A program made the position numbers and the translations under genes. A DNA stretch of 11,743 bases from the NCBI GenBank assembly GCA_029862935.1, contig JAOTWK010000066.1, forward strand, positions 1 to 11,743. Reading direction: 5' to 3'. Source of the stretch: Gemmatimonadota bacterium. Lineage in GTDB: Bacteria; Gemmatimonadota; Gemmatimonadetes; Gemmatimonadales; GWC2-71-9. This document shows positions 4,314 to 10,209 of the stretch, piece by piece. The first letter of the stretch is position 1, and each line of letters starts with the position of its first letter. A model generated the notes under the pieces. That model saw only the letters and a list, made by a program, of their open reading frames with translations, had not been told where the DNA came from and did no database searches.

Positions 4314-5411
4314 GTGCAAGCCCCGGGTGGCGACGACCCCGTGCGCGTGCAGGAGCTCACGGTCCGGAATTTTCGCAACCTGGCGTCACTCGACGTGGAG
4401 TTGCCCGGTGACGGAGCCGTCATCATCGGTGCCAATGGGCACGGCAAGACGAATTTCCTGGAGGCGATCTACTATCTGGTGCTGTTTCGCTCGCTCCGGG
4501 GAGCCAAAGACCGGGAGCTCGTGCGTTTCGGAGAGGCCGGGTTCTTTCTTGCCGGGCGTGCGATGCAACGCGTCGCGGTGGGCTACGAAGTGCACGGCCG
4601 TCGCAAGAAGGTCACGGTCGATCACGGCGAGGTGAAGAAACTGTCCGATGGTGTCGGACTCATCACGGCGGTAGCGTTCGCGCCGGCCGACCAGGCGCTC
4701 GTGGCGGGTGGGCCTGCCGGGCGACGACGCTACCTCGACATTCTGCTCTCGCTCAGCGTGTCAGGCTACCTGGGCGCCCTCACCACTATGCGCCAATCGC
4801 TCAAACAACGAAACGCTGCGCTGCGCCAAGGGCGCGAAGACGCTGCGCGCGCGTTCGATCACCCGTTCGCCACGAGCGCGGCAGTCGTGGCGGCGGCACG
4901 CCGTCGCTGGGTGATGCGATGGGCTGCTCAGTACCAGGAGACGTGTGCCGCACTGGGTGAACTGGGTGACGCGACGCTCGACTACGCGCCCGATCATCAT
5001 CGTGCGGACGATGCAGCGCAACGCATTCGCGAAGCGCTCGATGCTGCACGCCCGCGCGACGTGCGCCGCGGTGTGACGACGGTGGGACCCCACCGGGACG
5101 ACGTCACGTTGATGCTGAACGGTAGGGCTCTACGACTCTACGGGTCCGCGGGACAGCAACGCACCGCGGCCGTGGCCCTCCGACTCTTGGAGGCCGAGAC
5201 CCTGCGTCAGGCGCGGGGTGCCGCGCCCATCGCGCTGTACGACGACGTGTTCGCCGAGTTGGACACGGGTCGGCAGGAACGTCTGCTGGCGCTCATTCGA
5301 GAGACGCTGCCGGGACAGGCCATCATCACCGCACCGCGTGACGACGAAATCCCGGCGGCACTCCTCGACCGGCCCCGCTGGCGCATCGCGGAGGGACGTC
5401 TTGCGCAATAA
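4314..5411 (+). CDS. recF: DNA replication and repair protein RecF
   Basis: RecF is an SMC/ABC-type ATPase that, with RecO and RecR, loads RecA at single-strand gaps and stalled forks. With the start used here the protein has 365 residues, the usual size. The Walker A motif GANGHGKT lies at 39-46 within an RNFRNL...F.EAIYYL N-terminus. GPHRDD is at 258-263, the ABC signature YGSAGQQRT at 276-284, and Walker B with a D-loop (IALYDDVFAELD) at 306-317. The frame opens earlier at GTG 4284, but that would overlap the preceding gene by 20 bases. GTG 4341 (MRVQEL) would give the most family-like N-terminus and has GGGTGG 10 bases before it. The start is therefore uncertain within about 20 codons. 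The gene is followed directly by dciA, and the recF-DUF721-gyrB order is common near bacterial replication genes. Confidence 0.95.
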   Translation: MQAPGGDDPVRVQELTVRNFRNLASLDVELPGDGAVIIGANGHGKTNFLEAIYYLVLFRSLRGAKDRELVRFGEAGFFLAGRAMQRVAVGYEVHGRRKKVTVDHGEVKKLSDGVGLITAVAFAPADQALVAGGPAGRRRYLDILLSLSVSGYLGALTTMRQSLKQRNAALRQGREDAARAFDHPFATSAAVVAAARRRWVMRWAAQYQETCAALGELGDATLDYAPDHHRADDAAQRIREALDAARPRDVRRGVTTVGPHRDDVTLMLNGRALRLYGSAGQQRTAAVALRLLEAETLRQARGAAPIALYDDVFAELDTGRQERLLALIRETLPGQAIITAPRDDEIPAALLDRPRWRIAEGRLAQ

Positions 5412-5703
5412 AGGCAACGGCGGCAGCGAACCCCTGGGCGACGCACTTGCCGGTTACATCAAACGTGCCGGTCTCAAGCGGCGGTTGGATCAGGCAAGTG
5501 TGATCCCGGAGTGGGCTGACCTCGTGGGTCCGCAGATCGCCGCCGTCACCACCCCACACTACGTCTCGCAGGACGGCGTGTTGGTGGTGAGCGTGTCGTC
5601 ATCCGCGTGGATGCAGGAACTCCAACTCATGTCGCCGGAGATTCTCAAGAAGCTGGGGAAACGGGGGAAGAAGATTAAGCGGATCGTGTGGAGGGGGGAG
5701 TGA
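5401..5703 (+). CDS. dciA: DUF721/DciA-family protein
   Basis: This 100-residue basic protein belongs to the DUF721 family, whose best studied members (DciA) act with the replicative helicase DnaB in place of DnaC. Family features visible are the N-terminal LGDALAGYIKRAGLKRRLD helix (12-30), the PEWADLVGPQIAAVTTP core (36-52) and the SSAWMQELQLM strand-helix (67-77). It ends in a lysine/arginine-rich tail (84-94). The start is taken as the TTG at 5401, inside the end of recF. A strong Shine-Dalgarno sequence, GGAGGG at 5390-5395, stands 5 bases before it, and no ATG or GTG fits better. The overlap with recF by 11 bases implies translational coupling. Between recF and gyrB this gene is in its classic position. 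Helicase loading has not been shown for every DUF721 protein, so the family call is firmer than the role. Confidence 0.87.
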   Translation: MRNKGNGGSEPLGDALAGYIKRAGLKRRLDQASVIPEWADLVGPQIAAVTTPHYVSQDGVLVVSVSSSAWMQELQLMSPEILKKLGKRGKKIKRIVWRGE

Positions 5704-5705
5704 TT

Positions 5706-5765
5706 GGGACGGCGGCAGGGACGGAAACGGCGGCAGATATAGAGACGGCGGCAGGGCGGCAGGAA
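5706..5765 (+). repeat. Left inverted-repeat tract of GGCGGCAG units
   Basis: This tract begins three bases after the dciA stop and contains three spaced copies of ACGGCGGCAG (5709-5718, 5727-5736 and 5745-5754), followed by GGCGGCAGGAA. Its purine-rich strand is complementary to the tract at 6225-6285. In a transcript running from recF to gyrB the two tracts could pair and close a large loop around the four-helix-bundle gene. Confidence 0.65.
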
Positions 5766-5825
5766 ATGCGATGAGGCGCAGTGTTCTGGTAACGTCAGAC
5801 ATCAGGCACACACGCAGATTGATGC

Positions 5826-6185
5826 GTGAATCGCCACCGAAGGCTTCGGACATGGCAGTCTGCGCGCGAGCTTGTTCGGCTGATCTACAAGGTCACCGAG
5901 GCGCTTCCCGTTGAAGAGAAATACGTTGCCAGCGCTCAGCTACGGCGGGCGGCGTGGTCGGTGGTCAACAACATCGCCGAGGGAAACGGGAAACTCGGAC
6001 GCGCCGAGATGCGGCGGTTCTTCGACACGGCCCTTGGCAGTCTCGCTGAGATCGACTCGATGCTTGCGACGCTGGCCCATCTCTATCCCCTCGAATCCAA
6101 CATCACCACCGGTTTTGAACAGCTTCGTCGGGACATAAATCGAGGCGTCTTCACGATGCTGAAGCAGAGCCGAAAGGGCCCCTGA
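5826..6185 (+). CDS. Four-helix-bundle protein of the 23S rRNA intervening-sequence (IVP/S23) family
   Basis: This 119-residue, mostly helical protein matches the four helix bundle family known from ORFs in 23S rRNA intervening sequences and also scattered in intergenic regions. The diagnostic pattern is present: W10-Q11-x-A13-x-E-L near the N-terminus, LRRAAWSVVNNIAEG at 39-53, and the F65-F66...A-L-GSLAE stretch at 65-75. The biochemical function of the family is unknown; its fold resembles the Avd accessory protein of diversity-generating retroelements, but no reverse transcriptase is nearby. The start is GTG at 5826 with no clear Shine-Dalgarno sequence, so expression may be low or depend on coupling. 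The gene lies between inverted G/C-rich tracts and splits the dciA-gyrB pair, which suggests it arrived as a cassette. Family membership is firm; the role is not known. Confidence 0.9.
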   Translation: MNRHRRLRTWQSARELVRLIYKVTEALPVEEKYVASAQLRRAAWSVVNNIAEGNGKLGRAEMRRFFDTALGSLAEIDSMLATLAHLYPLESNITTGFEQLRRDINRGVFTMLKQSRKGP

Positions 6186-6224
6186 CTCACTTCCGGTGGG
6201 CTCCAACCGCGCTGCCGCGCTGCG

Positions 6225-6285
6225 GCCGTTTCAGTTCCTGCCGCCCTGCCGCCGTTTCAGTTCCTGCCCCCCTTGCCGCTGTCCC
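6225..6285 (-). repeat. Right inverted-repeat tract containing a 26-bp tandem duplication
   Basis: GCCGTTTCAGTTCCTGCC occurs twice with a 26-bp period (6225-6242 and 6251-6268). Each copy is followed by a related tail, GCCCTGCC and CCCCTTGCC. The complement of the tract is built of the same GGCGGCAG and GAAACGG elements as the left tract at 5706-5765. It ends at GTCCC (6281-6285), the mirror of the GGGAC at 5706-5710. Confidence 0.65.
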
Positions 6286-6311
6286 TAAGACCTTGCCCTC
6301 CAAAAGCTTAG

Positions 6312-8351
<2,040 letters not shown>

Positions 8352-8886: not shown

Positions 8887-10209
8887 ATGAAAATAGCTAT
8901 ACTACTATTAATTGCCGGTCTGCAGGGAACCACACCGGACACGACATACCTGTCCATCGAGACGGCCATCGAACGCGCGCTCGAGGCGAACCCGGCACTG
9001 CGTGCCGCGCGGGCCACCGCCGACGCAGCCGGCGCCCTCCCGACTCAGGCAAGCCAGGCATTCTTGCCAACTATTGATCTCGGGTTGACCGGCGTCCGGA
9101 CCAACGATCCCGTCGCGGTCTTTGGCCTCAAGCTGCGCCAGGCCACGTTTGCCATGTCCGATTTCGACATCGGCGCGTTGAACAACCCGAATCCGTCGGG
9201 TGGATGGGACGCGGCTGTCACGGTGCAAATGCCCATCTTGGCACCGGAAGGGCTGTTCGGGTTCGCGGCGGCACGGAAGGCCGCGCGGGCCCAGAGCGCT
9301 GCGGCAAGCCGGGCAGCTGGGGCAAGCCAATTCCTGGTTATTCGGGCGTATTGGGACGCGCAGCTCGCGGCCCGGCAGGTGGAGGCGCTCGACAGCGCCC
9401 TCACGGCGGTACGCGCCCACCGCCGTCGCGCACAGGCAATGCGTGAGCAAGGGCTGGTCACCGGACTGGATGAGCGGCTCGCCGGATTGAAGGCATCCGA
9501 GCTCGAAGTACAGCGGTTGGCGACGGCGGCGCTCGCGGCCAACGCGGTGGGCGTCGTTCGAGCCATGCTGGTGCTCCCCGAAGGTGACGTCATTGTGCTG
9601 ACCGACTCGCTTCGCCTGGCCGCGCCGGGAGGAACGTGTGCCGCCGCCGACGCGACATGCGTCATCGATCAACGGGGCGACCTCGAAGCGTTCCGCCTCG
9701 GGGAGGCCGCTGCCCGTCTTGGTGTCAAACGCGCCTGGGCCTCGCAACTCCCTGCCGTCGCAGTGTTCGGGACGCTCGCACACCGGACCGCGAGCGCACC
9801 GTTCAGCGCCGGAAGTGGTGATTGGACCGTCGGCGTCGGGGTCACTTGGCCGATCCTCCGCGGGTTGGCCGGTGTCGGCGCCGTGCGCGCGGCCAAAGCC
9901 GAACATCGTGCGGCCTCGGCGCGCCGTGAGGCTGCCGAGCGGCAGGCGGCACTCGAGATCACGCAAGCCAGCGACATGCTAGAGGCCGCGCGGCAGCGTG
10001 TCGACGTCGCAGCACGGGCCGAAGTGGAGGCCCGGGAAGCCTTGGAGCAGGCGCGCCTCCGCTACCGCACCGGTGCAGCCCCCATCACCGAACTGCTCGA
10101 CGTCCAAGCGGCAACGACCACTACAACCCTGCATTACCTCGCGGCGCGCCGCGATCTGTTTGTCGCCAGCGCCGCCCTGGACCTCGCATATGGAGTGAAT
10201 GATCAATGA
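8887..10209 (+). CDS. TolC-family outer membrane efflux protein
   Basis: This 440-residue outer membrane factor is expected to form the trimeric channel of the tripartite pump encoded with it. A short signal peptide (MKIAILLLIAGLQG, 1-14) precedes the typical family start, a SIETAIERALEANPALRAA helix near 24-42. Alternating long helices follow, with the second internal repeat ending in the RYRTGAAPITELLDVQ element characteristic of TolC proteins. Two cysteines, C251 and C258, sit in the linker between the repeats and could form a disulfide. The first codons (AAA ATA GCT ATA CTA CTA TTA ATT) are AT-rich and unlike the rest of the gene; they coincide with operator-like sequence. No Shine-Dalgarno sequence is visible before ATG 8887. 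The TGA overlaps the ATG of the fusion protein gene (ATGA). Confidence 0.93.
   Translation: MKIAILLLIAGLQGTTPDTTYLSIETAIERALEANPALRAARATADAAGALPTQASQAFLPTIDLGLTGVRTNDPVAVFGLKLRQATFAMSDFDIGALNNPNPSGGWDAAVTVQMPILAPEGLFGFAAARKAARAQSAAASRAAGASQFLVIRAYWDAQLAARQVEALDSALTAVRAHRRRAQAMREQGLVTGLDERLAGLKASELEVQRLATAALAANAVGVVRAMLVLPEGDVIVLTDSLRLAAPGGTCAAADATCVIDQRGDLEAFRLGEAAARLGVKRAWASQLPAVAVFGTLAHRTASAPFSAGSGDWTVGVGVTWPILRGLAGVGAVRAAKAEHRAASARREAAERQAALEITQASDMLEAARQRVDVAARAEVEAREALEQARLRYRTGAAPITELLDVQAATTTTTLHYLAARRDLFVASAALDLAYGVNDQ

Follow-up and report, generated by a model that had tools for sequence, protein, structure and literature searches.

The DNA analyzed here, referred to as the window, is a stretch of 11,743 nucleotides from a Gemmatimonadota bacterium. 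Between dciA and gyrB the window carries a gene for a four-helix-bundle (FHB) protein that is enclosed by long inverted arms. The insert begins directly after the stop codon of dciA (5701–5703) and stops short of the promoter-like region of gyrB. The features of the locus are listed below.

5401..5703, + strand: dciA, the upstream neighbor (PF05258); the start is uncertain and the gene overlaps the end of recF
5706..5768, + strand: upstream arm, a G-rich imperfect short-tandem tract (GGGACGGCGGCAGG...) with a unit of about 8–9 nt
5769..5825, + strand: leader from the upstream arm to the start codon, containing CGATGAGG, which is close to the weak leader motif AACGATGATG
5826..6185, + strand: FHB protein gene (PF05635 / TIGR02436), 119 aa, GTG start as listed
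6208..6285, + strand: downstream arm, C-rich, an imperfect reverse complement of the upstream arm
6346..6400, + strand: promoter-like TATATTG of gyrB and leader with a terminator-like hairpin, common to relatives and intact 3' of the cassette
6417..8351, + strand: gyrB, the downstream neighbor, assigned by Pfam scan

The 21-nt perfect inverted repeat reported in the first-pass annotation was confirmed, with positions 5745–5765 being the exact reverse complement of 6235–6255. The near-matches described beyond this core belong to longer imperfect arms, of which the downstream one reaches GTCCC. Without gaps, 5722–5768 pairs with 6232–6278 over 47 nt at 81% complementarity, and a second pairing joins 5706–5736 to 6220–6250 at 84%. 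The downstream arm contains a 26-nt direct repeat (6212–6237 and 6238–6263) and then continues out to GTCCC. STRR-like repeats have 7-nt tandem units, and the unit of the window arms is 8–9 nt and imperfect. When the whole window was scanned for inverted pairs (score of at least 20, loop of up to 900 nt), a single pair was returned, namely the cassette arms. A similar scan, at a score of at least 18 and a spacing of 200–900, detected no pairs in 373 kb, and one in 400 kb of shuffled sequence. The flank score, for which the upstream flank is compared with the reverse-complemented downstream flank, is 24.5 for the window cassette. In the predicted fold of the RNA of 5700–6290 (−285.9 kcal/mol, z of −7.7), the ends pair in a terminal stem that spans about 5706 to 6285; none of 100 shuffles did as well. 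No Rfam match was obtained for 5650–6500 up to an E value of 0.1, and a known RNA family was rejected for the cassette on this result.

Behind the TATATTG box, the gyrB leader contains a GC hairpin with a T-run after it, an arrangement that resembles an intrinsic terminator and is a possible attenuator. The hairpin is located at 6346–6397 in the window, at 9520–9580 in locus L002 and at 9525–9580 in L017, and is also present in L003, L109, and L110. Folding was carried out for three of these leaders, and only that of L002 surpassed its shuffles.

The product of the window gene was identified as a PF05635 protein with an E value of 1.2e-24 using Pfam, which detected no catalytic domain in it. 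PADLOC gave no match, and the assignment as a known defense gene was rejected. The AF2 model of the protein has a pLDDT of 94 and was matched using Foldseek to XCC0516 (2gsc), with E values of about 1e-6 to 1e-5, and also to BT_0352 (2rld). A more distant match was found to Avd of the diversity-generating retroelements (TM 0.72–0.75, E 0.06–0.18; Foldseek E 0.05–0.4 for 4dwl and 8ub7). The relatives with the XCC0516/Avd fold are pentameric and bind nucleic acids. By analogy with them, the FHB protein is probably a pentameric nucleic-acid-binding ring of this kind. To our knowledge, the PF05635 proteins, known from inserts in 23S rRNA, have no settled function. The dN/dS ratio is 0.07–0.16 in 8 of 11 FHB pairs, one of the eight having a dS near 3; the other three pairs are saturated at silent sites, where the ratio is not computable. 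These values indicate that FHB proteins are under purifying selection and are functional. Pfam scans of 12 other window proteins, one of which was without any match, returned no transposase, in agreement with the first-pass annotation, and no reverse transcriptase was detected among the window proteins scanned.

Related genomes were collected by RecF and DciA searches. In 34 of them gyrB follows dciA on the same strand within the locus examined (41 loci, 7 of which come from a genome already counted), and no FHB gene was detected between the two in any of the 34; L106 (G180) was left out of this count, its gyrB being on the other strand. The interval is at most 266 nt in 33 of the 34 genomes and is thus too short for an FHB gene, and the interval of 1,776 nt in L003 gave no match to the window protein. 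The window cassette is therefore a lineage-specific insertion, and the earlier description of it as a cassette rather than a fixed locus is upheld. A lone purine-rich tract without a gene lies right after the dciA stop codon in two relatives, L001/L127 (L001 2134–2223) and L110. The nearest relative of the window protein among the loci examined (L336 in G153; 64% over 73 aa) is located at another genomic site, and its arms are unlike those of the window.

Nineteen Gemmatimonadota genomes were sampled via their RecF loci, and PF05635 was found in 17 of them in 92 search rows; the FHB counts per genome are such rows in draft genomes, with whole and partial genes taken together. The loci provided 62 distinct FHB genes, or 63 with that of the window, and 58 of these had enough flanking sequence. 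The own-flank score of the 58 genes has a median of 23.75, compared with 9.0 for mismatched loci. It lies above the 99th percentile of the mismatched pairs for 46 genes, and the remaining 12 are without arms above this threshold. The own pair was the best of its row for 42 of the 58, and several of the misses are orthologous sites with common arms. Of the 58 FHB genes, 39 have a flank score of at least 20; among 474 control ORFs taken from four of these genomes, 2 do.

The arms consist of tandem repeats, most often of a 7-nt unit such as CAGGTAT, GTCAGGA, CCGGAAG, or ACGGCAG. A periodicity score of at least 10 was found in 36 of the 63 upstream flanks, 27 of these with a period of 7. The upstream arm is the G-rich one in 53 of the 59 cases with a bias (p of 2e-10, with orthologous copies included and thus not all independent), and 2 of 61 have no bias. 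The median gaps are 89 nt from the upstream arm to the start codon and 5 nt from the stop codon to the downstream arm. The AACGATGATG leader motif is weakly enriched, its best 7-mer occurring in 7 leaders, a number that shuffles also reached. A weak motif of this type is seen in the leaders of, for example, L038, L052, L058, L078, and L102.

Most FHB cassettes have an arm sequence of their own that is private to the locus or genome. The tracts GGCGGCAG/GAAACGG, proposed in the first-pass annotation to recur around other FHB genes, do not form the arms of any other FHB gene that was examined, and a recognition motif common to all FHB genes was rejected because the arms are mostly private. For the same reason, the fixed terminal inverted repeats common to copies that characterize a MITE or IS were not found. 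Arm likeness between loci is nearly confined to close proteins, mostly at orthologous sites, and the specificity of protein for repeat is therefore not proved by phylogeny. Two FHB copies in G018 (L037 and L051) differ at 29% of their silent sites and yet have the arm unit in common.

The arm units recur away from the FHB genes. The AGTCAGG arm repeat (AGTCAGGAGTCAGGAGTCAGG) gave 82 overlapping matches in G018, 12 in G009, and 0 in the 17 other genomes, and the GGTATCA arm unit gave 93 in G012, 5 in G013, and 0 in the 17 others; overlapping matches were counted, and the sites are hence fewer than the matches. The reversed-pattern controls provided 2 matches in G012 for the AGTCAGG search and none for GGTATCA. 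A reversed heptad of the GATTAGT type is invalid as a control because it is the same repeat when read backwards.

The 672 kb sampled from four FHB-rich genomes contain 15 FHB genes, 13 of which lie inside inverted pairs, together with 27 gene-free pairs, and the best period is 7 or 14 in 24 of the latter. The two FHB-free genomes G007 and G017, the only such controls, were sampled evenly and contain 2 inverted pairs in 800 kb; the contigs of the FHB-rich genomes were mostly picked for their FHB genes (G012:C67 for its hairpin), and some sampled genomes are close relatives. The best match of 18 of the 27 gene-free hairpins is to an FHB cassette of their own genome, where about 13% would be expected (p of 1e-10). 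The score of these matches is at least 20 for 15 of the 18 and weak (12–16.5) for 3, and some are only narrowly ahead of a related genome. For the other 9 of the 27, the best match is not to an FHB arm of the same genome. Across eight genomes the density of gene-free hairpins correlates with FHB number (Spearman 0.92, p of 0.001), and the correlation is the same whether the FHB cassettes are counted or only the gene-free pairs. By eye, in two FHB-poor genomes, the sole hairpin of G002 and the four hairpins of G005 have repeats like those of FHB cassettes L098 and L095, respectively. The six draft genomes sampled contain 14 inverted pairs whose loop is 200 nt or longer; an FHB gene lies in 13 of them, and the 14th is a hairpin pair around another ORF. 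The first-pass annotation had allowed that the tracts might be ordinary repeats unrelated to the FHB genes, but this is not simply so, since gene-free hairpins dispersed in other genomes share the arms of FHB cassettes in the same genome.

Other long inverted repeats were also observed. Two long hairpins of G012 (C27 18425–18615 and C172 4831–5012; L230 and L237) share ATGCGGCCTCAGGAC and ACAACCGAGGAT and have no good match to any FHB cassette arm. In FHB-free genome G017, an inverted repeat with an 83-nt perfect arm (score of 83) is located at 4649–4882 of L162.

One intergenic hairpin is common to the related genomes G011, G012, and G013, with 77–84% DNA identity there and a conserved loop core. 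The three genomes differ in its arms, which consist of (GATTAGT)n in G011, (CAGGTAT)n in G012, and (GATCAGT)n in G013. Each of these units recurs in its own genome, with 91, 93, and 11 overlapping matches in G011, G012, and G013, respectively, the last number covering both GATYAGT forms. FHB cassettes with the same units are L036 in G013 (GATCAGT) and L040 in G012 (CAGGTAT), and two FHB fragments at contig ends in G011 adjoin GATTAGT tracts. In a second common hairpin, the arms from G013 are mixed. For the G012 cassette L077, the orthologous site is empty in G013 and contains a decayed copy in G011.

FHB genes with repeat arms are also present on cyanobacterial plasmids, where they lie between operon genes (nrdB/nrdA, cas6/cas4, and cmr2/cmr3; L226, L228, L219, and L224), the cas and cmr sites being within CRISPR operons. 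Among the plasmid loci, including those of Gemmatirosa (13 of 15 records found), 9 of 13 score at least 14.5 and 4 of 13 are without clear arms. The 100 kb examined of Nostoc pNe_5 contain two FHB genes, each enclosed by an inverted pair; the AGGGAAC unit of one cassette recurs in a gene-free pair, and the TAGGGAG unit of the other in further tracts. In 200 kb of the Gemmatirosa plasmid, the sole FHB gene seen lies inside a pair, and a search of the plasmid returned one FHB place at an E value of 1e-5. In the other 27 of the 28 inverted pairs of this stretch there is no FHB gene, and the arm families of these pairs look unlike the FHB cassette there. The further hairpin families in the 200 kb of Gemmatirosa kalamazoonensis plasmid 1 (L393–L396) have GGGACTC, GCAGAGGAC, ACAGGATGA, and GGAGGACTGAA units. 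In the finished stretches of Nostoc and Gemmatirosa, loops of at least 200 nt enclose an FHB gene in three pairs and none in three. In a third phylum, to which a genome titled Lentisphaeria belongs, PF05635 was found in 41 of 59 genomes (37 over the cut-off); 13 of 29 loci score beyond the 99th percentile seen with mismatched pairs, and 16 of 29 are without clear arms.

The association of FHB genes with their repeats is well supported. It suggests that the FHB protein and the repeats are spread or maintained together; we infer both an action of the protein on the repeats and the route by which these are copied. The reading that we favor, as somewhat more probable than not, is a REP/RAYT-like partnership of the FHB protein with its cognate hairpin repeats that operates without a known transposase. 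The window insert would then be one of a class of small selfish cassettes with the layout of a G-rich short-tandem arm, a leader of about 90 nt, the FHB gene, and the inverse arm just past the stop codon. Each genome would have one to several arm families, and in each family an FHB cassette would be joined by gene-free hairpins and isolated tracts that repeat its unit, much as a RAYT gene has its REPINs. While the hairpin of its own family is single-stranded, at the replication fork or in a transcript, the FHB protein may bind the folded form and may promote the copying of the hairpin into new intergenic sites and its homogenization via host replication or repair enzymes. The unrecognized mechanism tying the family protein to its own flanks, put forward in the first-pass annotation, is supported to this extent, with the action of the protein on the repeats being the conjectural part. 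Taken as a whole, the earlier interpretation stands in the cassette, the likeness to the 23S rRNA intervening sequences (IVS), the lack of a transposase among the proteins scanned, and the tie to the flanks, and is not supported as regards a tract sequence common to FHB genes, the arms being mostly private.

Alternatively, the repeats could be host-driven and the gene dependent on them, with replication slippage and template switching between the inverted arms making and homogenizing the hairpins, while the FHB gene lives in them, or its protein binds them so as to limit harm, without spreading them. The arms of related genomes are one or two changes apart (ATCAGGT, ATCAGTG, and ATTAGTG) and one orthologous hairpin is mixed, as expected from slippage and conversion; heptad repeats are described without a partner gene in the passages drawn on from PMC4692102, and many Gemmatirosa pairs are unlike the one FHB cassette seen. 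We nevertheless judge this explanation unlikely, since FHB-free G007 and G017 are nearly without pairs (2 in 800 kb), almost every gene enclosed by pairs in those six drafts is an FHB gene (13 of 14), and the polarity of the arms is fixed. Also unlikely is a bolder version of the partnership, in which FHB would be the missing partner of the bacterial heptad repeats, a non-catalytic ring directing the genome-wide rewriting of arms from the master in its own cassette, such that all hairpins follow a mutation of the master heptad as telomere repeats follow their template.

An RNA-level element like the 23S rRNA IVS, with arms kept for RNase III excision from operon transcripts and gene-free hairpins as deletion derivatives, would account for the terminal stem (z of −7.7), for the cyanobacterial insertions between neighboring operon genes, and for a protein family and stem-closed layout that are those of the IVS in the part of PMC4990558 cited. 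Pairing alone leaves the genome-own heptad in dispersed hairpins and tandem units unexplained, and in an informal look the hairpin loops of G011, G012, and G013 appeared unlike FHB leader or coding sequence; this explanation is accordingly doubtful in a high degree. There is also a slender chance that the hairpins are moved in trans by a transposase or reverse transcriptase of an ordinary type, either a RAYT/Y1 enzyme or a DGR-like reverse transcriptase with an Avd-like FHB protein. In its fold the protein is similar to the Avd of DGR complexes (4dwl and 8ub7), at a TM of 0.72–0.75 but with Foldseek E values of 0.05–0.4, the hairpins are organized like REPINs, and G018 has one match to PF01797. 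However, PF01797, the one family used in the transposase search, is found in 7 of 19 genomes and is absent from hairpin-rich G011–G014, which weakens a RAYT/Y1 partner, and a reverse transcriptase or DGR partner is weakened by the occurrence of PF00078 in only 3 of 19 genomes (G004, G012, and G015) and its absence from G011, G013, G014, and G018. Since neither Y1 transposases nor reverse transcriptases are consistently present, a partnership with host enzymes is favored.

Among known systems, the REP/REPIN-RAYT elements (REPtrons) are characterized, in the passages of PMC3116915 and PMC8266576 cited here, by a gene with its private repeat in the flanking DNA, by gene-free inverted pairs of the repeat scattered extragenically, and by several gene-repeat pairs per genome. 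Dispersed gene-free inverted pairs of a gene-flanking repeat likewise occur in relatives of the window genome. The partner here differs in being a four-helix bundle without an HUH/Y1 domain, the arms are mostly tandem arrays of 7–9 nt rather than a fixed palindrome, and their sequence changes between related genomes. The 23S rRNA IVS with an S23/IVP ORF likewise place PF05635 in a stem-closed insertion (PMC4990558, in the part cited), and the likeness drawn in the first-pass annotation is sound in this respect. The window insert is intergenic (dciA/gyrB) rather than in a helix of 23S rRNA, and FHB cassettes are multi-copy with arms common to gene-free hairpins.

The heptameric repeats of cyanobacteria, Xanthomonas, and Beggiatoaceae are similar in having genome-specific 7-nt tandem units and, in Xanthomonas, often form inverted pairs; no partner gene is named for them in the portions of PMC4692102 and PMC4679880 cited, and the latter portion finds no transmission mechanism evident. 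The terms four helix, S23, and intervening gave 0 matches in the main texts of these two papers. For Xanthomonas campestris, PMC4692102 reports 70 inverted pairs of GGGAATC. Such heptameric repeats also go by the name STRR. The resemblance of PF05635 to Avd is mentioned in the cited part of PMC10053308, and the fold of the window protein is similar to that of Avd (4dwl, TM 0.72–0.75); diversity-generating retroelements differ from the cassette in that no reverse transcriptase was found among the window proteins scanned and 16 of 19 genomes are without PF00078. Four-helix-bundle or IVP genes are mentioned without repeats around them in the relevant passages of PMC5524665, PMC8700078, and PMC11637426, and no link of heptad repeats to PF05635 was found in the open-licence literature among the matches listed.

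The proposed FHB-repeat partnership is therefore classed with neither the REPtrons nor the IVS, since it works like a REPtron without the protein that defines one and is laid out as an IVS while lying outside rRNA; we regard it as a new kind built from known components. The association gives the heptad repeats and PF05635 a testable role, in that FHB genes should predict the repeat families of a genome. Should the FHB protein act on the repeats, the two would form a partnership that spreads repeats with no known transposase or reverse transcriptase taking part.
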